DNA from: Magnetococcales bacterium
Lineage (GTDB): Bacteria > Pseudomonadota > Magnetococcia > Magnetococcales > JADFWU01
Length of the DNA: 64,000 nt
Direction of reading: 5' to 3'
NCBI GenBank assembly: GCA_015234045.1
Contig: JADFWU010000003.1
Coordinates: 1-64,000 of the forward strand
Below the pieces are notes generated by a model. It did no database searches. It had not been told where the DNA came from and saw only the letters and a list, made by a program, of their open reading frames with translations. Made by a program: the position numbers and the translations under genes. Positions 1,781-29,686 of this stretch are shown here, one piece after another. Positions within the stretch are counted from its first letter, which is position 1, and each line of letters begins with the position of its first letter.

Positions 1781-4700
1781 ATGTTTGATCAAACACTGCT
1801 TGATGTTCTCTGGATAATCATCTCCGCTTTTCTGGTTCTGCTGATGCAGGCTGGATTTCTTTGCGTTGAGACAGGGCTGACTCGTTCCAAAAACAATATC
1901 AACGTTGCCATTAAAAACAGCATCGATTTCTCTATCTCCTTGATTGCTTTTTCGGTGATGGGCTATGCCGTGATGTTTGGCGAGTGGCTGCCCGGTTGGA
2001 TTGGACCTCTGGAACCAGTGGCTTGGAAACCGGAAGATCCTTTTTTTATGGCGTTTTTTCTGTTCCAAGCGCTATTTTGTTCGACAGCGGTCACCATTGT
2101 TTCCGGTATGGTCGCTGAACGGATTCGCTTTGGTGGTTACATCCTGTTTTCACTGATACTGGCCAGTTTGATCTATCCACTCATGGGGCATTGGGCCTGG
2201 AATGGTATTGATGGTGGTACAGGACAAGGCTGGTTGGCGGCGGCGGGTTTTGTGGATTGGGCTGGTTCAACGGTGGTTCACTCCACGGGTGGTTGGTTTG
2301 GATTGGCGTTGCTATTAATCATTGGTCCGCGCAAAGGGCGTTTTGGTCCCAATGGAGAAGTCAATGAAATCATAGGCTCTAATCTGCCTTTGACCGCTCT
2401 GGGTGTATTGATTCTCTGGTTTGGTTGGATCGGTTTTAACGGTGGTTCAACCTTGGCGCTGAACTACACCATCGTACCGGTGGTGGTGAATACCTGTATC
2501 GCTGCGGCAGCTGGTGGGCTTGGGGCATTGCTGGTCGATTGGCTCAAGAGTGGCAAAGCACATGTAATGCCCTCTTTAAATGGCATTTTGGCGGGACTTG
2601 TTTCAATCACTGCTGCGGCACATGCTGTGACACTTATGGAGGCGATTATAATAGGGGCTATGGGCGGGGCCATCGCCTATTTGGCTGATTTAGCCATGTT
2701 GCGTATGCGGATTGATGACTCGGTGGGTGCTTTCCCAGTGCATGTCATGGGTGGTGTTTGGGGAACATTGGCCGTTGCACTGTTTGGTGATCCAAATCTA
2801 TTGGGGACTGGCCTGAGTGCCTTTGATCAGTTTCTGGTGCAAGGAAAAGGTATTCTTGCCTGTTGGGTGATCGCCTTCTTGATTCCTTTTATTGTTTTAT
2901 TGATTCTAAAACCATGGACCCGGATAAGGGTTACCGATGAAGAGGAGCAAGTGGGCCTCAATGTCTCAGAACATGGTGCCCGCAGTGAGCTACACGATTT
3001 TTTTCTAGTGCTGTCAGAGCAAGAAATTACCGGTAATATGAGCCTGCGTGCGCCATCCAATCCTTTTACCGAGATCGGCCAGATTGGTGCAAAGTTCAAC
3101 AGTGTAATGGATGCTTTGGAACAGAGTGTTTCCAAAATCAATGCCATTGTCAGTCATTCGGCGGATGCGATTATCACGTTCAACGCCAGTGGTGGGGCTG
3201 TGCTTTCTCACAATCCGGCGGCCCAGAGCATGTTTGGTCTGCCGGGTGACAATCTGCATTCATTAAGCCTGGGTAAACTGGTTCCTGAGTTGGATAACGG
3301 TGGGTTCGCAACGGGCAAACGGTTGGAGACGCAAGGGCATCGTCTTGATAAAAAAAAAGTCCCATTGGAGGCAATGCTCGTAGAAGCACAGTATCAGAAG
3401 GAAAAAATCCTCATTGCCACCTTTCGAGACATTACCGAACGCAAAGAGGCGCACCGCCATCTGATAGAGTCTGAAGAGCGTTTTCGCAGTGTGTATGAAA
3501 ATGCGGCATTGGGTATGGCGCTGGTCAATGAAAATCTGGAAATCGTTGATGCCAATCCTGCTTTGTTGAGTATGTTGGGCCTGTCTTGGGATGAGGCATT
3601 TTCAGCCAATCTATGTGGTATTACGCATCCTGAAGACCTGGATACCATATCGGATCATGTGCGGAAAGTTCTTTCTGATTCGCAGAACCGCCACATCACA
3701 GAAGTGCGCTGTCTGTGTAAATCCCAGCTCATGATCTGGGCACGGCTTGCATTTTCCAAGTTTCATTTGGAAAAGAATATAGGGCCTTTGGCTATTGTCA
3801 TTGTTGAGGATATCACCAATCAGAAGCACGCTGAAAACGCGATTCGTCTTTCGGCATCAGTCTTTGAAAGCACAACCGAACCAATTGTCATTTTCAATGC
3901 TAACGGTCTCATTGAACAGGTTAATAAAGCGTTCAAAAAGGCATTTGAACTGCGGGATAGTGAAGTACGCGGACTGAAGATCCGTCATTTGCTTTCAGCC
4001 AGGTATCAGACTGATTTCTTTGATGAAGTAGAGGAAAAGCTGAGAACAGATCAAACATGGCAAGGTGAGATGATGGGCCGCCGCTCGGATCAAACCCTAA
4101 TGCCGCTGTGGGTCTCGCTCTCACTGGTGCATGATGCCAAGAAAAAACTTCAAAATCGTGTGGCTATTCTGACAGATCTATCTGAGCAAAAAGAGCGGGA
4201 AGAAACAATTTGGCGCCACGCCAATTTTGATACGTTGACCAAACTGCCCAATCGTCGTCTATTCCAGGACCGTCTGGATCAATCGTTAGGTCAAGCCAAA
4301 CGCACAGGCGCAAGGATTGGACTCTTTTTTATCGACCTGGATCGATTCAAACTGGTAAACGACACCATGGGCCATCAGGCGGGTGATGAGTTGCTACAAC
4401 GGGTAGCAGAGCGCATTAATCATACGGTGCGCTCAACCGATACAGTGGCGCGACTCGGTGGTGACGAGTTTACTGTGATTCTTCAAAATTTCAATAAAAG
4501 TACTGAGTTGAGCCAAATTGCCAGCAGTATTATCGAAGAGGTGGAAAAACCATTGATGCTTGAGGCTGGAGAGGCTTCTGTCTCTGCCAGCATCGGTATT
4601 GCTGCCTATCCTGTAGATGCTCAGGATACTCAGGAGTTGATTCGGTGTGCTGATTCGGCGCTTTATCAGGCCAAGGATGCTGGGCGCAACACCTATCAGT

Positions 4701-5512
4701 TCTTTACCGAAGAGCTCAATCAAGCCTTGATTGATCAAGTTAAGCTTGAAAAAAATCTGCGCCATGCCATCGAGAATAACGAATTGTTCATGCTCTATCA
4801 GCCACAGTTGGAAACACAAACAAGCTCTGCGCCATGCGCCGAAGCGCTGGTGCGTTGGCGCACGCCGGATGGTGGTATGATTTCGCCGGGGGATTTCATC
4901 CCGTTGGCGGAAGAGACCGGCCTGATTATTCCGTTGGGTTCCTATGTAATCCGTGCAGTATGTCGGGATATTCGTCAGTGGATGGATCAGGGGTACAGCG
5001 TGCCGCAAGTTGCCATCAATGCATCCGCCAAACAGTTTCATTATGAACAGGGATTGCCTAAGCTGATAGAAAATATTTGTAAAGAAGAACGGGTGCCGCT
5101 GAAATCCATTTCCATTGAGATTACCGAAAATAGCATCATGTCCAATGAGAAAGAGAGTCTGGATGTGCTGAATCAATTATCGGAAATGGGCGTTAGCATT
5201 TCGTTGGATGATTTTGGCACGGGTTATTCCAGCCTTTCACGTCTTAAACAACTGCCTATTGGTGTACTCAAGTTGGATCGCAGTTTTGTCGCTGGTATTC
5301 CAGAGTCACAGGAGAATACAGCCCTGGTTACAGCCATTGTGCAGATGGCGCATGCATTGGGATTAAGCGTAGTTGCTGAAGGTGTTGAGACTGAAACAGA
5401 GCTGGAGTATTTGCGCCAACTGGATTGTGAAAAGATACAAGGCTACCTGATTAGCCGCCCTGTTTCTGCAGAAGAGTGTATTCTATTTTGCAATGAATTC
5501 ACTTTAAATTGA
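1781..5512 (+). CDS. Ammonium transporter fused to PAS-GGDEF-EAL (Amt-type sensor for cyclic-di-GMP turnover)
   Basis: 1243 residues, ATG preceded by GGTGAG. Residues ~1-395 form an Amt/Rh ammonium channel (eleven hydrophobic spans; Amt motifs such as DWAGSTVVHSTGG and FGWIGFNGGS). A short HAMP-like linker (~400-450) leads to three PAS-type domains (~455-820). The GGDEF domain has an intact RLGGDEF near residue 893, with the RxxD product-inhibition site (RSTD) five residues before it. The EAL domain has EALVRW near 1021, LDDFGTG, KLDRS and EGVE. All catalytic signatures for making and breaking cyclic-di-GMP are present. The architecture implies that ammonium passage or availability at the membrane is reported directly to cyclic-di-GMP, bypassing P-II; this is inference. 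Unlike the amtB at 15380, no glnK lies beside it. Full length and intact, far longer than a plain Amt (~400-450). Confidence 0.9.
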   Translation: MFDQTLLDVLWIIISAFLVLLMQAGFLCVETGLTRSKNNINVAIKNSIDFSISLIAFSVMGYAVMFGEWLPGWIGPLEPVAWKPEDPFFMAFFLFQALFCSTAVTIVSGMVAERIRFGGYILFSLILASLIYPLMGHWAWNGIDGGTGQGWLAAAGFVDWAGSTVVHSTGGWFGLALLLIIGPRKGRFGPNGEVNEIIGSNLPLTALGVLILWFGWIGFNGGSTLALNYTIVPVVVNTCIAAAAGGLGALLVDWLKSGKAHVMPSLNGILAGLVSITAAAHAVTLMEAIIIGAMGGAIAYLADLAMLRMRIDDSVGAFPVHVMGGVWGTLAVALFGDPNLLGTGLSAFDQFLVQGKGILACWVIAFLIPFIVLLILKPWTRIRVTDEEEQVGLNVSEHGARSELHDFFLVLSEQEITGNMSLRAPSNPFTEIGQIGAKFNSVMDALEQSVSKINAIVSHSADAIITFNASGGAVLSHNPAAQSMFGLPGDNLHSLSLGKLVPELDNGGFATGKRLETQGHRLDKKKVPLEAMLVEAQYQKEKILIATFRDITERKEAHRHLIESEERFRSVYENAALGMALVNENLEIVDANPALLSMLGLSWDEAFSANLCGITHPEDLDTISDHVRKVLSDSQNRHITEVRCLCKSQLMIWARLAFSKFHLEKNIGPLAIVIVEDITNQKHAENAIRLSASVFESTTEPIVIFNANGLIEQVNKAFKKAFELRDSEVRGLKIRHLLSARYQTDFFDEVEEKLRTDQTWQGEMMGRRSDQTLMPLWVSLSLVHDAKKKLQNRVAILTDLSEQKEREETIWRHANFDTLTKLPNRRLFQDRLDQSLGQAKRTGARIGLFFIDLDRFKLVNDTMGHQAGDELLQRVAERINHTVRSTDTVARLGGDEFTVILQNFNKSTELSQIASSIIEEVEKPLMLEAGEASVSASIGIAAYPVDAQDTQELIRCADSALYQAKDAGRNTYQFFTEELNQALIDQVKLEKNLRHAIENNELFMLYQPQLETQTSSAPCAEALVRWRTPDGGMISPGDFIPLAEETGLIIPLGSYVIRAVCRDIRQWMDQGYSVPQVAINASAKQFHYEQGLPKLIENICKEERVPLKSISIEITENSIMSNEKESLDVLNQLSEMGVSISLDDFGTGYSSLSRLKQLPIGVLKLDRSFVAGIPESQENTALVTAIVQMAHALGLSVVAEGVETETELEYLRQLDCEKIQGYLISRPVSAEECILFCNEFTLN

Positions 5513-20275: not shown

Positions 20276-23200
20276 ATGGGATTGCTTGCCAGTTATCTGA
20301 TCACCGGCCTTTCTGCACTCTGGATCATCACTATTCTGGTGATTTCGTACTATAGCGGTCTGGCTGTTTTTTCCAATGTCGAAGGCTTTTTGGCAGCGCT
20401 TGCACTGCCTGATTTTCTTGCAACACCGCTGCAACATCAAGCAGAAGCGCCGATTATTCGGACGTTATCCGGTGTTGTTGGTGCGTTGGTCACCTTTTTT
20501 TTGCTGGGTTATGTGTTCCAGGCATTTCTGGATGCACTGCGGGTGACGTTGGTCCGCTATCTGCTCAGAAAAAATGAGCTGGATGATCGTTTTAAAAATC
20601 CTCAAGATCCCATCAGTGCGTTCAACTGGTGGTACTTTCCACGTTTCAGTCGCCTATGGCGTGACTTTGCTAAAACCGTCCATGTCCAGATCTACAATGA
20701 TGATTATGGTGACGCGCGTGTAAACTACCGTGCTACCGTACCGTGTGAGATGTTCTTCAACCGACAGACCTTGGTTGATGAGCCGATGCGGGTGGAGTTT
20801 TTCCGCCATCTTCCCGGTATTTTGACCGGTGCGGGTATCGTCTCAACCTTTGCCGGTATTCTTCTTGGTCTGACCGAATTTAATCCAACGGTCCAGCCGG
20901 ATCAGGTAACCATCCAGCTACACAATCTATTCACCGGTGTTTCAACTGCATTTGTGGCCTCGTTCATGGCCATTTTTACCGCTATTTTAGTGACCGTACT
21001 GGAAAAACTGGTACTGCATTGGCGGGCCTCTCAGATCAATAATCTGCAAAGCCAGATTGATTCACTGTTTCCTGGTGCGGTGGAATCGGAGTATTTGGCG
21101 GATTTGGTGCGCCAAGAAACGGTCGGTTCCAGCGGAGAGATGGATCATGCCACTGCTGTGGTTCTACCTCGTTTGGAAAAGTTTCTTGAGACAGATTTCA
21201 CCAAGGTAATCAAAGATGTTTCTGAACGTATGATGGTTGGTCAGGCTGAGCGCAATCGCCAGCTGGAGACCAGCTTTACCGTTGCGTTGAACACGATGAC
21301 TGAAGTGCTTTCTCAAAGTTTGGATCTCCATAAAAAACAAAGCCAAACCCTTTCCGGTGTCGAAACTGTTCTGACCCGACAGGATCATGAAGTCTCCAAT
21401 GCCCTGACAACATTGACCGACCAACTGAAATTGTTAACAGCTCAACAACAGCAGATGGGTGAACGACTGGCCTATACCAGTGATATGCTGGCAAGTAGTG
21501 AACAATCGGTTCAGTCTGGGGTGGAGATCCAATCTGGATTGAACCGGGATGATCATCTCGGTGCATTCCGATCCCTTGAAACACGAATGGAAAAACTCAA
21601 CACCACGTTGGAGTCGGTCTTTCTCCAGTTGGATGAGTCCTTGGGTCTGATGCACAAGGGTATTGAGAACGGTCAAAGCAGTATGCAAAACGAGTTGTCC
21701 CGTCATTTTGATGTATCAACACCGGCAGATGGAGAGCAACAGAGTCTGGATAATGTGGCGGGTAAATTGGGTCGCCTTATCCAACAGAATCAGAACTTAT
21801 CAACCAGTCTGGATACCATTCGTCAATCCATGGATCAGCAACATGAGAACCAACAACAGCGCGGTTCTCTGGATCAACAAGCCAATGAGGCGTTAGGCGC
21901 TATTTTAACGGCTCTGGAACGGTTGGGCACACTTCAAGAACACTCTGGCGATAGTTTGAAAGATGTCTCAGAGGCTTTGATTGCTCAACAACAGGAGCGT
22001 CAGCGTCTTGTGGATGTGTTGACTGAGCTTACCAGTGGTCAACAGCTAACCACTGATCAACTCAAACAGGCGCTTGTAGTGTTGGAAAAACAGAGCAATC
22101 TGCTCGCTAGTGGTGATGTTTGGGCTGAAAAAGCGGCCAATGGGTTGGCGGCTCTGCGTGAACTATTGGAAAAACAGCACCTGGTTACGCCGCCTGATTC
22201 TCATGAAATCCAACCTGTAGACACCGTGTTGGATGCGGTCCACGCTCATGGTGCCGCCATTGATCAGAAGGTTGCTGGACTTGAGCAGGTGATTCGCAGT
22301 CGGGCTGCGGTCTCAGATGAGCAGTTAGAGGCAATTCAAGAGCGTATCGGTGACCAGGAAAACAAGCTTGGTCAATCCACCGAGGATATCCGCAACGCGT
22401 TTGTAGAGCAGACTCAGGCTGGAAGCGCTCAACTCGAACAGATGATCCAGGGCATAAAAACGCAACAAGCGATGATGGAGAATAATCTTGTCCGTCTGGA
22501 ATCCGCGTTGAGTGAACAGCTTGGGTCAACGCATTCGTTGGTTGTGGAAAGTAGGGATGCTTTGGCACGGGATCTCAACCAGTTGGAAGAGGTTACCCAA
22601 CAAACCAATCAGAGCAGTGCAGACACGCATCAGATGATTCATGAGGTGCGACAAGCGCTGGATGGTCATGCAGAAAAACTCCATGAACGCGGTGAGAAAA
22701 ATGTGGCTTTGATGGTTGAAAACCGCCGCGCTATTGAAGATTTGGTGGGAGAAAATCGGAGTCATGGTCAATCGGTTGTCGAACAGTTGAGCGCACTGAA
22801 AGAGCCTGTTGATAAAGGTTTGGCTCAATTGATGACTGTGGCCGAGAAGAACGACCAGTGGCAGAAAAAAATGGTCGAGACCATGGATGAGCATGCATTA
22901 GCACTGCTCGAACAGTCTGATAAGAATAATACCGCCATAGCGTCTGTCTCTGAACAGGTGAGCGCTCAGGATGAAACCCTGGATAACGGCTTTGCCACTG
23001 TGCGTCAGGCACTGCATGTGGCTGAAGATGGTCGCCCTGAACTCGATCCTGAAGGCCTGAAAGCGTTGCGGGTCATGCCGGAGTGGCTTGCGGGTGTTCA
23101 ATCGGATCTGGATGCGCTTTCTGTGCGTGTGCTTAATGGCCTTGAAGGTGTTGAAGGCGTTGTACGCCGTGAAGGTCAGTTACTCGAAGAACAGCTACGG

Positions 23201-24154
23201 GCTCTGGTGACTGATCTGGATAGCGGTAACCGCGATCATAGACGCACTACCGCCAATACGTTGAAACAGAAGGTGGAGGGCATTGCCAGTCGTCAGGGTG
23301 ATCTTTCTCAACGTTTCGATGCGATCCAGACTGTTTTTCAAGAAAATATGGAACGCCTGGATCAAACACTTGAAGGCGCGACCCGTCAATTGTTGGACCG
23401 ATTGCTTGACCACGGTGAATTCCTTGTCAATCAAAGCGAAGAGGTGCAGACAAAGGCGCTCTCCAATCTGGAAGATCGTCTCAGTGGCGATATTTCCGCC
23501 ACACGCCGCTATCTTGAAGAGATGCGAGAGAGTCGCAGCAAGAGTGAAAAAGCGCGCCATCAGGAAGTGGTTGCCCGTCTTGATATCCAAGAAAATCAGA
23601 TCACAGAGCATATCAAGTCAATGCTGTTTAAGGGGATTCAAGACTCTTCTGATAAAGTGGCTGATCACCTCAAAGAGACCAGTGACAGCCAGAATAAACG
23701 TTCACAAGCCATCGCGGATATGTTGCTCTCCGCCATGGTCAATAAAGTGGAATCTACCTTTGGTAACCTGAATGATGATCTCAAAGGGTTGGCAGAGCGG
23801 TTCAGTGATGAGCAGAAAGGGGTACAGAAAGCCCTTGAAGCATGGGCTGAAAATCTGGCTCGTTCCAATCATCAAGAGGCTGAAATCTTGGCTCAACAGA
23901 TCCGCGATATTATGAACCAGACTGATCAGCGTCATGATGGTTTGGTGGATATGCTCTCTCAGGTGAGCAACAATTTGAGCAGTAATTTGGATCAGTTGAA
24001 AGACGGTATCATTACCCAAAGTGATGCGTCATCCGATAAGCTGGCGCGTCATATGGAAGATCTTGTAACCTCGTCCGGTCGTGAACAGGCGGTATTTATT
24101 GAAATGTTGGGTGAACGGCTCAATACGCTGCGTAAACGTCTCAAGGTTAAATAG
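20276..24154 (+). CDS. ZorA-like MotA/ExbB-type ion-channel subunit with a giant coiled-coil tail
   Basis: 1292 residues. Four membrane spans are visible: ~5-30, ~62-85, ~178-201 (LPGILTGAGIVSTFAGILLG) and ~217-245 (LFTGVSTAFVASFMAIFTAI). The last two with their short loop are the MotA/TolQ-type channel core, in the form typical of ZorA of the Zorya anti-phage system. From ~250 to the end the sequence is almost entirely predicted alpha helix, rich in Q, E, L, S, D and K with heptad character, about 1040 residues. That is far longer than the tail I recall for ZorA (total ~700). If continuous, such a tail could reach on the order of 100 nm or more into the cytoplasm. The ZorB-like partner is encoded at 26691. 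No cysteine-rich or enzymatic domain is seen in the tail. Function inferred: stator-like ion-driven motor transmitting a membrane signal along the tail. Confidence 0.75.
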   Translation: MGLLASYLITGLSALWIITILVISYYSGLAVFSNVEGFLAALALPDFLATPLQHQAEAPIIRTLSGVVGALVTFFLLGYVFQAFLDALRVTLVRYLLRKNELDDRFKNPQDPISAFNWWYFPRFSRLWRDFAKTVHVQIYNDDYGDARVNYRATVPCEMFFNRQTLVDEPMRVEFFRHLPGILTGAGIVSTFAGILLGLTEFNPTVQPDQVTIQLHNLFTGVSTAFVASFMAIFTAILVTVLEKLVLHWRASQINNLQSQIDSLFPGAVESEYLADLVRQETVGSSGEMDHATAVVLPRLEKFLETDFTKVIKDVSERMMVGQAERNRQLETSFTVALNTMTEVLSQSLDLHKKQSQTLSGVETVLTRQDHEVSNALTTLTDQLKLLTAQQQQMGERLAYTSDMLASSEQSVQSGVEIQSGLNRDDHLGAFRSLETRMEKLNTTLESVFLQLDESLGLMHKGIENGQSSMQNELSRHFDVSTPADGEQQSLDNVAGKLGRLIQQNQNLSTSLDTIRQSMDQQHENQQQRGSLDQQANEALGAILTALERLGTLQEHSGDSLKDVSEALIAQQQERQRLVDVLTELTSGQQLTTDQLKQALVVLEKQSNLLASGDVWAEKAANGLAALRELLEKQHLVTPPDSHEIQPVDTVLDAVHAHGAAIDQKVAGLEQVIRSRAAVSDEQLEAIQERIGDQENKLGQSTEDIRNAFVEQTQAGSAQLEQMIQGIKTQQAMMENNLVRLESALSEQLGSTHSLVVESRDALARDLNQLEEVTQQTNQSSADTHQMIHEVRQALDGHAEKLHERGEKNVALMVENRRAIEDLVGENRSHGQSVVEQLSALKEPVDKGLAQLMTVAEKNDQWQKKMVETMDEHALALLEQSDKNNTAIASVSEQVSAQDETLDNGFATVRQALHVAEDGRPELDPEGLKALRVMPEWLAGVQSDLDALSVRVLNGLEGVEGVVRREGQLLEEQLRALVTDLDSGNRDHRRTTANTLKQKVEGIASRQGDLSQRFDAIQTVFQENMERLDQTLEGATRQLLDRLLDHGEFLVNQSEEVQTKALSNLEDRLSGDISATRRYLEEMRESRSKSEKARHQEVVARLDIQENQITEHIKSMLFKGIQDSSDKVADHLKETSDSQNKRSQAIADMLLSAMVNKVESTFGNLNDDLKGLAERFSDEQKGVQKALEAWAENLARSNHQEAEILAQQIRDIMNQTDQRHDGLVDMLSQVSNNLSSNLDQLKDGIITQSDASSDKLARHMEDLVTSSGREQAVFIEMLGERLNTLRKRLKVK

Positions 24155-24165
24155 GGGCGTATTTT

Positions 24166-25695
24166 ATGGATAACAAACAAGATAGAGTCGTTCGACTTCG
24201 GCTGAATTCGGCCTCGTCAGGGCAGCCGTTACTGGACCATCCTTTGCTGAATAGTGTTAAAGGTAAAGCGTATAAAAATAGCTTTGCCATGGTGTTTTAT
24301 GATACACCCTCAGGTCACCTCTATCGGCGAGGTAATGTTTGGCTGCTCAATCGTAAGAATGATGATGATTGGCAACAGGCATTGGTGCCGGTAAACAGTT
24401 TGTTTCAATCTTCACGACGACCCATCGAAGCCAGTGTGAAAAAGGCTAAGAAGTCGGGGTCTGGCAAGAAAGGGAAAAAGGGTACTGTCGCTGGACCTCC
24501 CCGTGATGATATTGAACCGCTGTTTTCTCTTAACTTTACCCGTGTTCACCGTACGTTGGATCTGCCGGGTGCTGGTCTGATAGACTTTGCTGAAGATATC
24601 GGTACGCTGACCATCGGTGAACAGCGCAGCAGTTTTCATGAGTTGTTGCTCCAGGGTGCGCCCAAGGATGCAGACCGGATTAACCAGTTGGCATTGACGC
24701 TCTCTTTTGATCTCAATGGCCGACTGGCTTCCGGTTCATCCATGGCGCGGGGCTATGTACTGACCTTGCCTTCACGTCGGGTACTTCAGTTTCCCTCAGT
24801 TGAAAGTAATCCTAAAAAACAGAGTAGCGAAGATATCTTTATCCAACATGGCCATGCCATGCTTGATCAGCTGGAAACCATGCAACGGCCTGTGGAAATG
24901 GGCCAGGAACTGAGCGCAGGGCCCGCCGTGATGGGCTTGGGTCAAGCCATCCATCAGCTACGGACGCTGTTTATTCTTTATGCGCCTTTTACACCCTCCG
25001 GTGTTGGTCACCAGCTGGAAAAAGCCTTGATTGATCTCGAGGATCGAATGGCTTTGCCTTACGCTTGGGCTTGGTTTCACAGTCATGTTTTTGTTGATTT
25101 TGTTAACCGATTTCACGCCGATCGTCATTTAAACACCCTTCGTTCCCGGATCACTGAGCACCGCCAGACAGCGGTTGAGGATGTGTGTTCTGTTCTTTCA
25201 GAAATGGACTTTACCCGGTTGGTTCTCGGATTACGTAGTTGGCTTTCCTGTCGGCAATGGCGGGAAACATTGGATCAGGATCAGATTCATCAATTGACCA
25301 AACCGCCTGTGCGATGGCTTGGTGAAGTGCTCAAGCCTCTGGATGCCCAACTGATGGACCTTGGACGGCAGATGGGTGATAGAAATAGTGATCCCGCGCT
25401 TTTTCAGCGTTCTTTGAGCGTTGGTCACGCGTTGAGTTATGGGTCAAGTTGGATGATTGACCAGCCGGAGAAAAATAGCGCATTGAATCAGTTGCAGCAG
25501 CTGACCCAACAGCTTAAGCGTTTGGTTAATCTGCTCCGCGCTCAGGATTTGATTCACACCTTGTCAGCCGACCATCGTTGCGATACCGCTGATTTGTTGA
25601 CAGGATGGCTGGCATCCATGGAAAATAGCGCTCAACAGCGTTTGAGGCGGGTATGGCAACGCTATGAACGCCAGACTCTCTGGAATGGCAAATGA
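24166..25695 (+). CDS. Divergent CYTH-CHAD protein (putative polyphosphate-binding)
   Basis: 509 residues, ATG with AGGGGCG upstream, 11 nt after the ZorA-like gene. The N-terminal ~210 residues follow the CYTH order: HPLLNS, FYDTPSGHLYRRGNVWLLNR near 44-63, WQQAL, then DFAEDIGTLTIGEQ, FHELLLQGAPKD and ARGYVL. The hallmark ExExK at the N-terminus is not seen (RVVRLRLNS instead), so triphosphatase activity is doubtful. A Lys/Gly-rich insertion (KKAKKSGSGKKGKKG, ~91-107) interrupts the domain. From ~260 the protein looks like a CHAD domain: IHQLRTLF, helix-rich middle, LQQLTQQLKRLVNLLR and a terminal RRVWQRYERQTLW. CHAD domains bind polyphosphate. Embedded between ZorA- and ZorB-like genes, it may sense polyphosphate for the motor; that is inference. 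Confidence 0.65.
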   Translation: MDNKQDRVVRLRLNSASSGQPLLDHPLLNSVKGKAYKNSFAMVFYDTPSGHLYRRGNVWLLNRKNDDDWQQALVPVNSLFQSSRRPIEASVKKAKKSGSGKKGKKGTVAGPPRDDIEPLFSLNFTRVHRTLDLPGAGLIDFAEDIGTLTIGEQRSSFHELLLQGAPKDADRINQLALTLSFDLNGRLASGSSMARGYVLTLPSRRVLQFPSVESNPKKQSSEDIFIQHGHAMLDQLETMQRPVEMGQELSAGPAVMGLGQAIHQLRTLFILYAPFTPSGVGHQLEKALIDLEDRMALPYAWAWFHSHVFVDFVNRFHADRHLNTLRSRITEHRQTAVEDVCSVLSEMDFTRLVLGLRSWLSCRQWRETLDQDQIHQLTKPPVRWLGEVLKPLDAQLMDLGRQMGDRNSDPALFQRSLSVGHALSYGSSWMIDQPEKNSALNQLQQLTQQLKRLVNLLRAQDLIHTLSADHRCDTADLLTGWLASMENSAQQRLRRVWQRYERQTLWNGK

Positions 25696-25736
25696 TACTG
25701 TTTCTAACCATATGGCTGTGACGATACCCTCCTAAA

Positions 25737-25758
25737 ACTGTGAAGCAGGTTTCACGGT
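25737..25758. repeat. Small intergenic hairpin, CGTGAAA-family copy 2
   Basis: ACTGTGAA / TTCACGGT arms (one mismatch) around a 6-nt loop in the 94-bp gap between the CYTH-CHAD and HDOD genes. The right arm GGTTTCACGG matches that of the hairpin at 15320. It may reduce read-through within the operon, but has no T-run. Confidence 0.45.
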
Positions 25759-25789
25759 GAATCGTGATTGATCATTATAACGACCTGAT

Positions 25790-26683
25790 ATGAAATTAAA
25801 AAAAAGAATTCTAAAGAAGGCCAACGCATTGGCAAAGGATCTTTCGATTCCTTCTCGACCAACGGTAATGATGGCTTTCATGCGTCTTCAAAAGAGCTTT
25901 GCGCCTGATCCCAATGCATTGATTGAATTGATCGGTCAAGATCTGTTGATGACGGCTACGGTGCTCAGAGAGGCCAATACGGTTCAAATGGGTATCGGTC
26001 CAGCAGTGACATCCATTCGTGAAGCCGTGATGCTGCTTGGCTACCCAGAAGTGCGTGAACTGCTCACACAGCTGTTTCTGACCACCGATCTTGTCGGACG
26101 GGATGAACCTGTCCAAATGCTGAGAAAACGGGCAATCCGAACCGCTCAGGTTGCTTTTAAATTGACAAAAATGCTCCAAGAGACTGCTCCGGCTTTTGTG
26201 AGTGGTTATCTACCCAAAATCAGCCCGGAACAAGCCCATACCATGGGGCTTCTCCATGAATGGGGGGCCATTGCCCTGATGCGGGCAGTGCCTGAGTATG
26301 AAAAACTCTATTTTAAGTACGTCAGTAAGGGCAGTGCCGCTTTGTTGAACGTGGAAAGAAAAGATATTGGCATAACCCACTGTCAAATGGGTGCCTATTT
26401 GGCTGAACAGTGGCAGTTTCCAGACTGGTTTCAAGAGGTGATTTTGCTACACCATGAACCGGGTTACTATATTGCGCCCGGTCGAAAACTGGAGAATTTG
26501 GAACCCGCAGCGCGTCAAGGTATCTTGACCCTGGCTCAACGGGTTTGTGGATTGATCACCGATAAGGAATGGAAAAAAATAGGACCGGACGCGATGCGTT
26601 TTTTTGGGCTGGAGGAAAGCCAGTTCGACCAGTTGATGCAAACAGCGGCCAACGAGTCGTCACCGTCCGATCTGGTCAATTGA
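25790..26683 (+). CDS. HDOD domain protein
   Basis: 297 residues; the ATG at 25790 has no strong Shine-Dalgarno, so the start is moderately certain. Residues ~18-220 have HDOD character: IPSRPTVMMAFMRLQ, PDPNALIELIGQDLLMTATVLREANT (the usual HDOD opening), SIREAVMLLGYPEVREL, then MGLLHEWGAIALM and ILLHHEPG. The HD-type metal residues are only partly kept (LHEWG rather than HD), as is typical of HDOD proteins, which usually signal rather than hydrolyse. It sits 7 nt upstream of the ZorB-like gene and is therefore an integral member of this operon. HDOD proteins are often linked to chemotaxis, cyclic-di-GMP and stress signalling. Confidence 0.8.
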   Translation: MKLKKRILKKANALAKDLSIPSRPTVMMAFMRLQKSFAPDPNALIELIGQDLLMTATVLREANTVQMGIGPAVTSIREAVMLLGYPEVRELLTQLFLTTDLVGRDEPVQMLRKRAIRTAQVAFKLTKMLQETAPAFVSGYLPKISPEQAHTMGLLHEWGAIALMRAVPEYEKLYFKYVSKGSAALLNVERKDIGITHCQMGAYLAEQWQFPDWFQEVILLHHEPGYYIAPGRKLENLEPAARQGILTLAQRVCGLITDKEWKKIGPDAMRFFGLEESQFDQLMQTAANESSPSDLVN

Positions 26684-26690
26684 GGTCACT

Positions 26691-27737
26691 ATGGCCCGTT
26701 TTTTAGCACGTCGTCAAAGAGCCGAAGAGACCGCAGATAGTCCGTTTTGGATCAGCTTTGCCGATCTTATGACGGCGTTGGTGATGCTGTTTCTGGTGGT
26801 GATGAGTATCTCCATGGTGGCCATAGCATCTCGCTCCATGGTGGAGAAAAAAGCACGTAGCACCGAGATTTCTACCGTGTTGGATACGCTTAATCAACAG
26901 GTTGAGGCGGAAGGGCTTCAGGGGTTGGATATCAACCGTGCCAATCATACCATCAGTTTTGGTATGAAGGCGAATTTTGCCCATAATAGTTTTTTCCTCA
27001 GTGAGGAAGCCAAGGAGAAGCTCCAGGCGTTTGTACCGTTACTGCTTGAAGTACACAATAAAGCCGAAGGTAAACGGTGGCTCAAACGTATCCATATTGA
27101 AGGGTATACCGATGAAACAGGAACGTACCTTTATAATGTGAATATGAGTCTTAACCGGGCTATGGCGGTTGTCTGTACTTTGCTCAGTGCGGATCTTCCG
27201 CCTGAAAAACATAAGCAGCTCAGAGAGTTATTGATCATCGACGGGGCATCGACCACCAGTGTAAAAGATAATCCTGATGACAGCCGTCGGGTAGAGATTC
27301 GTTTAGAGTTTCGCCAACTGGGTGAAGAAGAGTTGAATAAAGCGGCGGTGGATATGCCGTTGGGTCACTGTGCCATTCCGACAAGCCCGGAACAGGTGAC
27401 CACAGGATGGTATGAGAAAAAAGGCCGTAAGCCCTCTCAAGCCATGCTGAAAAAGGCTCAAAAGATGATTCAACAGCAGAATAATAAGCCCATTGAACAA
27501 CCGGTACAAAAGCAGATAAAATCAGCTGCGAAAGAGGCTCCGAAGCCGTTGGTTCCGCTGAACGTTAAAAAACAACAGACAGATACGCTAAAAACTGAAT
27601 CAGTGCCTGTTGTATCAATTCCGGTCAGGCTGCCTGAAGTGCCTATTCCTTCTCCACTGCCTGTGCCAGATCAACGTTCAATTAATAGTTTGATGGACCA
27701 GGAAACTTCATTGGAAGAAAAACTGTCCAATGAGTGA
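26691..27737 (+). CDS. ZorB-like MotB/OmpA-type stator protein
   Basis: 348 residues, ATG with GAGG upstream. A short cytoplasmic N-terminus leads to a single membrane helix, ISFADLMTALVMLFLVVMSI (~21-40); Asp25 takes the place of the proton-carrying Asp of MotB (Asp32 in E. coli) and of ZorB. The periplasmic part holds an OmpA-like peptidoglycan-binding domain (IEGYTDETGTYLYNVNMSLN, then RA, from ~134) with the expected Asp and Arg. From ~235 onward the protein is a Pro/Lys/Gln-rich, probably disordered extension of ~110 residues, which standard ZorB lacks as far as I recall. Together with the ZorA-like protein this makes a complete 5:2-type stator unit. No ZorC, ZorD or ZorE gene is in the neighbourhood. 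Confidence 0.8.
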   Translation: MARFLARRQRAEETADSPFWISFADLMTALVMLFLVVMSISMVAIASRSMVEKKARSTEISTVLDTLNQQVEAEGLQGLDINRANHTISFGMKANFAHNSFFLSEEAKEKLQAFVPLLLEVHNKAEGKRWLKRIHIEGYTDETGTYLYNVNMSLNRAMAVVCTLLSADLPPEKHKQLRELLIIDGASTTSVKDNPDDSRRVEIRLEFRQLGEEELNKAAVDMPLGHCAIPTSPEQVTTGWYEKKGRKPSQAMLKKAQKMIQQQNNKPIEQPVQKQIKSAAKEAPKPLVPLNVKKQQTDTLKTESVPVVSIPVRLPEVPIPSPLPVPDQRSINSLMDQETSLEEKLSNE

Positions 27738-27789
27738 CTTGAGTAAACGTCAAAGATGATCAAACTCACCCTCAGTTGAGAGAACGCGC

Positions 27790-28056
27790 ATGTCTGCTGG
27801 AAAAACAATGAAGTGTCCGATTTGTGGCGGTCGTCCGGCACGAATCTATAAGTGCACTGTATGTGGTGAAGTACGTTGTGGTCAGGACAAGTGTATTGGC
27901 AGTCTATCCACCTATCGAGGTTGGGCAAGTGCGGGTACACAGTGCCGCGCGTGTGGCAAAGGGCGTTATGCGTCCATGGATTTTGTTGGACGTGAAATGG
28001 ATGAATTTTTGCGTGACTATAAACCCAATAAGCGCATAGAAGTTGAAAATCCCTAA
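27790..28056 (+). CDS. Small zinc-ribbon protein
   Basis: 88 residues. Four cysteine knuckles are visible (CPICGG, CTVCGEVRCG, a lone Cys in DKCIGS, and CRACGKGRY), enough for two zinc sites. No membrane helix, signal or enzymatic motif. It follows the ZorB-like gene by 52 nt on the same strand and could be the last gene of that cluster; a small metal-binding adaptor is plausible. The start at 27790 is chosen over an internal ATG at 27808 because it is the first ATG after a purine-rich stretch, though neither has a strong Shine-Dalgarno. Confidence 0.65.
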   Translation: MSAGKTMKCPICGGRPARIYKCTVCGEVRCGQDKCIGSLSTYRGWASAGTQCRACGKGRYASMDFVGREMDEFLRDYKPNKRIEVENP

Positions 28057-28207
28057 CAGATATGAAGGGCTTCGAACTGTTAGATCGTTGTGCTATTTAT
28101 CATGTTTGATCCAGAAATAGCCAAATAAGTTTTCATATTAATGTGTCTTGGGAGAGTTTTAGAGTTTGTTATGGACCTCTGTTTTTGGGTTTTTAGCAAG
28201 GCTCAAA

Positions 28208-28216
28208 GGGGGGGGG
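28208..28216 (+). repeat. G9 homopolymer at a start codon
   Basis: Nine consecutive G residues immediately precede the ATG at 28217 and include its Shine-Dalgarno. An upstream ATG at 28171 in another reading frame runs through the tract and stops soon after it, so a change in tract length would fuse or uncouple that leader. Homopolymers of this length at starts are classic sites of slipped-strand phase variation. Confidence 0.6.
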
Positions 28217-29065
28217 ATGGAAAGTTGGTTGCTTACAAATGAAGCATCGGTGCGTATTGGTGTTTTTATCGGCTTGTTTGTGTTGGTTGCTCTGATAGAG
28301 TATCTGTTTCCTCGGCGTGTTTTGACAGCGCATCGTGTTGGGCGCTGGTTTAGTAATATCTCTATAGTTGTTTTGAGTAATGTTTTAGCGCGTTTTATAA
28401 TGCCTATCACAACGATGGCCATGGCTTATCTATGCCAGCAGAATGGGTGGGGGATACTGAATACCGTTAGTTTGCCTCATTGGTTAGAGATTGTATTGGC
28501 TGTTGTGGTATTTGATTTAGCGATTTATTTGCAGCATTTGATGTTTCATGCAGTACCCATTTTATGGCGTTTGCACATGGTTCATCATGCTGATCCAGAT
28601 GTTGATGTTACAACAGGAACGCGTTTCCATCCCATTGAAATCATTCTTTCATTATTTATCAAGTTGGTGATGATCTATTTGCTGGGTCCACCTTTGGTTG
28701 CCGTGCTGGCCTTTGAGATTATTCTCAATGCGTTGGCCATGTTCAACCATGGCAATATTGCACTGCCGCTGTGGCTGGATCGTCTGTTGCGTCTGTTATT
28801 GGTGACACCGGACGTTCATCGTGTCCATCACTCTATTTTGGCTGAGGAGACTAACAGCAACTTTGGTTTCAATCTCTCAATATGGGATAGACTCTTTGGG
28901 ACGTACTGTGCACAGCCAAAACTTGGACATCGGAAAGTCGTCCTGGGGGTGACCAAAATCAAAGGGGCTGAGAGTGTTAATTTGCTTTCGCTATTGTTGA
29001 TACCATTTCGTAGCAATCCGGGCAGTTATGCCATTAATCGCCGCTGGTCGGATGATGAATCGTAG
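28217..29065 (+). CDS. Sterol desaturase / fatty acid hydroxylase family membrane protein
   Basis: 282 residues from ATG 28217. Three or four hydrophobic spans (~12-30, ~45-70, ~85-110, ~150-175) surround the eight-histidine di-iron pattern: HLMFH, LHMVHHAD, FHPIE, NHGN and DVHRVHHS. This is the fatty-acid-hydroxylase superfamily, whose members oxidise or desaturate acyl chains, sterols, carotenoids or alkylglycerols in the membrane. The exact substrate cannot be told from sequence. The start sits directly behind a G9 tract (28208-28216), which may make expression switchable. The stop codon marks the edge of a truncated Rpn gene. Confidence 0.88.
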   Translation: MESWLLTNEASVRIGVFIGLFVLVALIEYLFPRRVLTAHRVGRWFSNISIVVLSNVLARFIMPITTMAMAYLCQQNGWGILNTVSLPHWLEIVLAVVVFDLAIYLQHLMFHAVPILWRLHMVHHADPDVDVTTGTRFHPIEIILSLFIKLVMIYLLGPPLVAVLAFEIILNALAMFNHGNIALPLWLDRLLRLLLVTPDVHRVHHSILAEETNSNFGFNLSIWDRLFGTYCAQPKLGHRKVVLGVTKIKGAESVNLLSLLLIPFRSNPGSYAINRRWSDDES

Positions 29066-29686
29066 ATTTCACCAACGTTTTCAGCATTGGTTGATGCTGA
29101 AGAATCATGGCGACCCTATTTGCTGGATTTCGTTTTCTCCGTATTGGACTTGGGCCGTATTGAGGATACGGATCTGTCTCGTGATGACCGGCTGCGTGGT
29201 GGGTTTCTAGCATTGAAATGGGTGTTCCAGTCAGGTCTATCATCAGAAATCGTAGCATCCATTGGTCGTGCATTGCACGAAGATACAGAACTGGCTCAAC
29301 GTGCGTTACAGTATCTGGTTCAGACATGTGAGGATTTTGATATGAGCAGCATTCGGGCATTTTCTGAAGAAGCTTTTCCTGGTGAAGCGGATCAGTATGC
29401 TTCCCAGTTTGCCAGGGAGATGATTGCGAAGGGTGAAGAACAGGGTCTCCGAAAAGGCCGTCAAGAAGGCCGTCAAGAAGGCCGTCAAGAAGGCCGTCAA
29501 GAAGGCCGTCAAGAAGGCCGTCAAGAAGGTGAGACTGCCCTGCTCCTTTGCCAACTGCAACAACGCTTTGGCAAACTACCTGATTGGGCTATGGATAAAC
29601 TGAACACCGCAGATCAAAAAACACTGGAAAATTGGGGGATTAGAATTCTCGATGCAGGGGATTTGGAAGCGGTGTTTTCGGATTGA
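29066..29686 (+). pseudogene. 5'-truncated Rpn/YhgA-type PD-(D/E)XK nuclease family gene
   Basis: The frame is open from directly after the desaturase stop (29065) to 29686, about 206 residues. It corresponds to the C-terminal part of Rpn-family recombination-promoting nucleases: a helical region with SWRPYLLDFVFSVLDL and FAREMIAKGEEQGLRKGRQEG, ending in a short QQRFGKLPDWAMDKL segment. Typical family members are ~300 residues with the nuclease core at the N-terminus; that core is missing here. A TTG at 29087 is the only near-N-terminal start, with no ribosome-binding site. The junction with the stop codon of the previous gene suggests deletion or insertion at that point. A short protein could still be made but would lack nuclease activity. 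Confidence 0.7.
29456..29527 (+). repeat. Six perfect 12-bp tandem repeats (GRQE)6
   Basis: The unit GGCCGTCAAGAA is repeated six times without change, encoding six GRQE units in frame in the Rpn remnant. The repeat number can change without frameshifting. Perfect identity implies recent expansion. It is not a CRISPR: there are no spacers. Confidence 0.9.

Follow-up and report, generated by a model that had tools for sequence, protein, structure and literature searches.

What does an ion-driven motor of the ZorAB type do in an operon that encodes no nuclease or helicase? Motors of the ZorAB type are familiar from phage defence. The question is raised by five genes in the 64-kb stretch of DNA analysed here (positions 1 to 64,000 of contig JADFWU010000003.1 from a Magnetococcales bacterium; the window), where a ZorA-like and a ZorB-like motor subunit are encoded together with a CYTH-CHAD protein, an HDOD protein and a small zinc-ribbon protein. 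This motor operon is vertically inherited and specific to its lineage, and it forms a clade separate from Zorya. As its partners are of signalling or scaffold type instead of DNA-cutting ones, the motor has probably been put to another use; we assign a probability of about one half to the reading that it is a lineage-specific, inherited ZorAB-type ion-driven rotary motor used otherwise than for DNA attack.

Organization of the locus

As a first-pass annotation of the window had proposed, the operon consists of five open reading frames on the + strand with short intergenic gaps (11, 94, 7 and 52 bases), and each was found where it had been placed. The features of the locus are as follows.

20276..24154, + strand: ZorA-like motor subunit, 1292 amino acids (aa), with a membrane core at about residues 60-285 followed by some 1000 residues of cytoplasmic tail
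20453..21130, + strand: conserved core of the ZorA-like subunit, residues 60-285, which holds Thr191 and Ser229 of the ion path (alignment to PDB ZorA)
23555..24151, + strand: conserved tail tip of the ZorA-like subunit, residues 1094-1292 (orthologue comparison)
24166..25695, + strand: CYTH-CHAD protein, 509 aa, a predicted pseudoenzyme or adaptor (profile and fold matches)
24178..24765, + strand: CYTH (triphosphate tunnel) domain in degenerate form, residues 5-200 (profile and structure alignment)
24796..25692, + strand: CHAD domain without HxxRxxxR, residues 211-509 (VIA-align Z 27.0 to 6QV5)
25790..26683, + strand: HDOD protein, 297 aa (Pfam HDOD, E 2.1e-34)
26691..27737, + strand: ZorB-like subunit, 348 aa, with the Asp25 membrane helix, an OmpA-like peptidoglycan-binding domain and a low-complexity C-terminal extension (Pfam, PADLOC)
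26763..26765, + strand: codon of ion-path Asp25 in the ZorB-like gene (alignment to E. coli ZorB)
27790..28056, + strand: small zinc-ribbon protein, 88 aa, with eight invariant Cys (orthologue alignment)
28166..29065, + strand: membrane protein of the fatty-acid-hydroxylase superfamily, a possible sixth gene (Pfam FA_hydroxylase, E 2.4e-29)

Motor subunits

The ZorA-like protein matches PADLOC ZorA1 (E 1.9e-69), NCBIfam ZorA (E 1.8e-48, under the cut-off) and the PDB ZorA structures 8QYD/8QYY (E 1.5e-36 to 2e-34), and the ZorB-like protein matches PADLOC ZorB1 (E 2.3e-68) together with the Pfam families MotB_plug (E 1.4e-6) and OmpA (E 2.3e-8). Matches to the type II profiles of PADLOC are weaker (ZorA2, E 1.9e-11; ZorB2, E 1.7e-18), and neither NCBIfam equivalog cut-off is reached (126 vs 750 bits for ZorA1 and 187.7 vs 400 bits for ZorB1). 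T191 and S229 of the ZorA-like protein correspond to T147 and S184 of E. coli ZorA and are kept in 25/25 sequences of the system. Likewise, D25, Y148, N149 and R156, which are invariant in 18 ZorB-like proteins, align with D26, Y151, N152 and R159 of the solved E. coli ZorB. We take these residues to form the ion path and the peptidoglycan-binding site of the E. coli motor. Judged by these profile and residue matches, the two proteins are true relatives of the type I Zorya motor subunits, which bears out the long-tailed ZorAB-like stator of the first-pass annotation, and by homology they would assemble in a 5:2 ratio of ZorA-like to ZorB-like chains. PF01618 (MotA_ExbB) matched three other loci in a genome-wide search and did not match the ZorA-like protein, either there or in Pfam; an ordinary TolQ/ExbB or MotAB identity, which the annotation had named as a refuting outcome, is not supported by this model.

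Conservation is uneven along the ZorA-like subunit. Relative to the window protein, the identity of the orthologues is 44-59% in residues 1-290 and 22-35% in the last 200 residues, while the middle differs mainly in length, so that full lengths range from 770 to 2862 aa and tails from about 500 to 2600 residues with a conserved tip. At 0.15 nm per residue, the tail of the window protein would be about 150 nm long if fully helical. The low-complexity C-terminal extension of the ZorB-like subunit is missing from most orthologues.

Two alternatives can be considered here. The operon could be a new subtype of Zorya, with a motor that detects phages entering through the envelope and with the HDOD, CYTH-CHAD and zinc-ribbon proteins as its regulators or as effectors other than nucleases: its nearest known relatives are the ZorA1 and ZorB1 defence proteins, and it has both the long ZorA tail and the intact peptidoglycan-binding site that Zorya defence requires, along with ion flow (PMC11890865). 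Alternatively, the motor could serve magnetotactic cocci in cell-surface motility, in envelope upkeep or in placing large inclusions, with HDOD and CYTH-CHAD regulating it, i.e. with the signal running inwards to the motor. Related 5:2 motors power gliding and envelope work (PMC9389320, PMC12505986), the tails of the longest ZorA-like proteins could extend deep into the cell, and the motor is found in most families of the order. On the other side, no magnetosome or cell-division genes were seen in the operon, and flagellin genes are present in 48/48 genomes with or without the motor; flagellin being universal, the motor does not track flagellation. We regard such a motility, positioning or upkeep motor as rather unlikely.

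Distribution in Magnetococcales

We searched 48 genomes of the order, representing 14 families and including many incomplete metagenome-assembled genomes (MAGs), for the operon proteins. A ZorB orthologue (>290 bits; G038 was counted by two pieces of 218 and 171 bits) marks the motor operon in 31/48 genomes and 9/14 families. An HDOD orthologue (>=250 bits, or position in the operon as in G010, 188 bits) is encoded in 32/48 genomes: in 31/31 of those with the motor and in 1/17 of those without it, the latter being G047, which is 57% complete. Three genomes of family f5 encode a weaker, unlinked HDOD protein (196-218 bits). Full-length CYTH-CHAD is present in 25/31 motor genomes and in 0/17 without the motor. 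Four of the six motor genomes with no CYTH-CHAD match belong to family f8, where zorA, hdod and zorB lie side by side, and the other two have truncated contigs. The linkage of these two partners with the motor, which the annotation had proposed to test, is conserved.

Families f1, f2, f4, f7, f10, f11 and f12 share the gene order, the set recurs across many genomes of the order at 20-60% protein identity, and the CYTH-CHAD homologues of related genomes sit between the zorA-like and zorB-like genes, many with HDOD. Four g17 genomes retain all four genes but carry them as two separate pairs, hdod-zorB and zorA-chad, and in genus g7 the HDOD gene is a single copy outside the operon. Some lineages thus miss one gene of the set (CYTH-CHAD in f8, HDOD of the operon in g7), as might be expected if unrelated ordinary genes had simply come to lie beside a ZorAB-like pair. 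However, a gene set that recurs in constant order across many genomes is not the work of chance, and HDOD is kept in every motor genome even where it is unlinked, which leaves this explanation with a negligible probability.

In a tree of ZorB, the 30 rows of the system are split from Zorya with support of 100/100, as expected of the distinct system that had been proposed, and each family or genus with several genomes forms one group. In an RpoB tree of 28 genomes, the presence of the motor is explained by 3 changes. The system is therefore distributed family-wise and not patchily as is the horizontally spread Zorya I. The annotation had also held that ZorAB relatives lacking the CYTH-CHAD and HDOD genes would speak against a system. 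Canonical ZorAB pairs do lack both, but they belong to the other clade and stand with ZorC and ZorD; inside the system, f8 lacks CYTH-CHAD and no motor genome lacks HDOD.

A 4-kb contig labelled Deltaproteobacteria (L092) carries CHAD-HDOD-zorB and groups inside the system clade; it may be misbinned.

Absence of Zorya effectors and relation to defence

Canonical Zorya I (zorA-zorB-zorC-zorD, one locus without a called zorD) occurs in seven genomes of the order (L064-L070), and these loci served as controls. Neither ZorC nor ZorD was matched among the five proteins (PADLOC) or the scanned neighbours, whereas the control loci matched, and PADLOC found no ZorE, ZorF or ZorG among the five proteins, in agreement with the absence of ZorC, ZorD and ZorE described in the first-pass annotation. 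No known defence genes flank the motor operon among the scanned neighbours. Three genomes (G003, G022 and G029) possess canonical Zorya I and the motor operon together.

Inheritance at the level of families, the lack of defence genes nearby and coexistence with Zorya I all argue against ordinary phage defence, one of the roles suggested by the annotation, which is accordingly not favoured. The same observations count against a new Zorya subtype, whose families would be expected to spread patchily and not to coincide with clades, as does the lack of a nuclease or helicase; despite the kinship of its motor subunits, we consider that explanation unlikely.

Beyond the order, no homologous operon was found in a GTDB scan with the ZorB alignment or in 398 genomes of the phylum. 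The ZorB relatives recovered outside the order by the GTDB scan are at most 41% identical and mostly have ZorC and/or ZorD adjacent; none has CHAD beside it, and none has HDOD except for a weak, distant match of 29 bits (L151). Among the 398 phylum genomes, five outside the order gave a ZorB match at E<=1e-20, the highest at 230 bits vs at least 290 bits for nearly all members of the system. In Limnobacter and a Burkholderiales MAG (L139, L144, L153), pairs of a short ZorA-like protein (339-354 aa) and a ZorB-like protein have no ZorC or ZorD match nearby.

Partner proteins

The CYTH-CHAD protein resembles E. coli YgiF over its whole length. Its CHAD domain is matched by Pfam (E 6.6e-6), and a profile search against PDB retrieved YgiF 5A60 (E 7e-17) as well as CHAD structures. 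An AlphaFold model (predicted local distance difference test, pLDDT, 83) has full-length YgiF 5A60 as its best Foldseek match (E 6.7e-14) and aligns with it in VIA-align at Z 23.3 over 397 residues; the CHAD domain aligns with 6QV5 at Z 27.0.

The functional residues are not preserved together with the fold. YgiF requires E6, R56 and E160, and K69 participates in substrate binding (PMC4641920). The columns of R56, K69 and E160 are mostly occupied by T/L, Q/G/A and V/L, respectively, in the profile alignment of the operon proteins. The first CYTH strand, compared by inspection as there is no sequence alignment there, reads R-[LFM]-[RD] with an invariant Arg and has no ExExK, so the catalytic set E4/E6, R56, K69 and E160 is not retained. 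CHAD domains bind polyphosphate (polyP) through H-x2-R-x3-R lining a pore (PMC6537752). This HxxRxxxR motif is found in the polyP-binding helix of 0/23 operon CHADs, the single string match (L036) falling elsewhere, and is kept in 9/9 CHAD-only paralogues from the order. Net charge does not clearly separate the operon CHADs from these paralogues. We predict from these residue losses that the CYTH-CHAD protein is a pseudoenzyme or adaptor.

A polyphosphate- or nucleotide-linked output, as suggested by the first-pass annotation, is not supported by these data. The CHAD domain might dock the motor to polyP granules, or polyP might activate the motor, and both the YgiF-like architecture and the large polyphosphate inclusions stored by magnetotactic cocci (PMC8786505) would suit such a response. 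Loss of the motif in 23/23 operon CHADs, with the CHAD-only paralogues as a control, and replacement of the tunnel residues rule it out as the leading reading, and f8 has the motor without the CYTH-CHAD gene; a polyP response is, in our estimate, very improbable. PPK1 (PF02503) was not matched in any of the 48 genomes, where CHAD-only proteins are common, and its absence from all of them means that no correlation is usable for a polyP role.

The HDOD protein scores above the Pfam cut-off of its family (119.2 bits vs 22.9). In G008 and G009, HDOD genes also occur close to another pair of MotA/OmpA-like genes, without forming an operon with it. The zinc-ribbon protein had no significant match in family searches, and a fold search returned weak RING-like matches alone (best E 0.18); its eight Cys are all invariant in six orthologues. 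It adjoins the zorB-like gene in 7 genomes (144-153 bits), closing the operon. Zinc-ribbon paralogues elsewhere in the genomes (L163-L178, 66-123 bits) lie beside varied housekeeping genes, and these neighbours gave no functional hint.

Two f11 genomes (L043 and L052) likewise have the FA_hydroxylase gene 3' of the zinc ribbon. Elsewhere in the window, inspection by eye suggested a long open reading frame (1781-5512) whose N-terminus resembles an ammonium transporter and precedes PAS, GGDEF and EAL-like sequence, and another (29087-29686) with an EGRQ-type repeat run that resembles Rpn/PD-(D/E)XK transposase-like proteins.

Proposed function

In its more specific form, our reading is that of a non-defence rotary motor of the ZorAB type, old in Magnetococcales, that acts as a sensor-transmitter: an obligate HDOD protein and a dead CYTH-CHAD adaptor would relay the state of the envelope to the cytoplasm as a signal; we offer it tentatively, at clearly less than even odds. 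In the main reading, five copies of the ZorA-like and two of the ZorB-like protein would form an inner-membrane motor, with the OmpA domain of the latter gripping the cell wall. Ion flow past Asp25, Thr191 and Ser229 would turn or strain the complex, and the bundled ZorA tail may carry this motion, or a change in envelope state, about 150 nm into the cytoplasm, where the conserved tip would dock soluble partners and pass it on. HDOD would act as an obligate partner, either in signalling or in the recruitment of proteins, with CYTH-CHAD as a scaffold that has lost catalysis and with the zinc ribbon as an additional adaptor in some lineages. The docking at the tip, the direction of signalling and the role in envelope sensing or housekeeping are the parts of this scheme that we infer.

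Several points weigh against the main reading. The sensing role is drawn from domain types (HDOD). Family f8 manages without CYTH-CHAD, which is thus not essential to the core. The associations of the motor with HDOD (Fisher p 8e-12) and with CYTH-CHAD (p 2e-8; 48 genomes, kinship ignored) come from related genomes, so these values overstate independence and are descriptive alone. Finally, absence beyond the order refers to an exact-pattern scan of GTDB and to sampled genomes of the phylum.

If the proposal is true, the Zorya motor is just one branch of a larger family of motors with long tails. A relative with intact motor residues and no nucleases in most families of the order would mean that such motors do ordinary cell work too. 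The motor operon also offers a natural point of comparison for Zorya, where it is an open question what the tail passes on and which partner receives it: because the tail varies in length with a conserved tip and HDOD tracks the motor even when unlinked, the output side is directly testable.

Comparison with known systems

A search of a literature collection returned no paper combining ZorA, ZorB and CHAD, or Zorya with Magnetococcales. The motor shares the ion-driven 5:2 superfamily with flagellar MotAB, TolQR and ExbBD, and differs from them in that its ZorA-like subunit is not matched by PF01618. The operon protein and YgiF have the same order of CYTH followed by CHAD, but the former is without the triphosphate-site residues; the CHAD fold is likewise that of the phosins, polyphosphate granule proteins, but without HxxRxxxR.

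A second ZorAB-like operon of the order is encoded in the same genome (G000 contig C20, L225:6227-11976) and specifies a ZorA-like protein of 1154 aa, a ZorB-like protein of 310 aa and a ZorC-like EH_Signature protein with a C-terminal Hpt domain; its ZorB orthologues (>500 bits) are found in 16/48 genomes. Like the motor operon, it combines a long-tailed ZorA-like and a ZorB-like subunit with a partner carrying a signalling domain and has no ZorD, but its ZorA and ZorB belong to other subfamilies and its partner is ZorC-like. The Hpt partner agrees with the idea that long-tailed motors feed signalling, and does not prove it.

With Zorya types II and III the motor operon shares the ZorA/ZorB core, at weaker match, and lacks their ZorE, ZorF and ZorG. 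The closest known system is Zorya type I (E. coli 8QYD/8QYY and Shewanella 8VVN), with which it has in common homologous ZorA core and ZorB proteins with membrane and peptidoglycan-binding parts, the Thr, Ser and Asp of the ion path, the peptidoglycan-binding residues and the long cytoplasmic tail of ZorA. In contrast to type I Zorya, it forms a clade of its own with scores below the cut-offs, is inherited by family, and encodes HDOD, a pseudo-CYTH-CHAD protein and a zinc ribbon in place of ZorC and ZorD.

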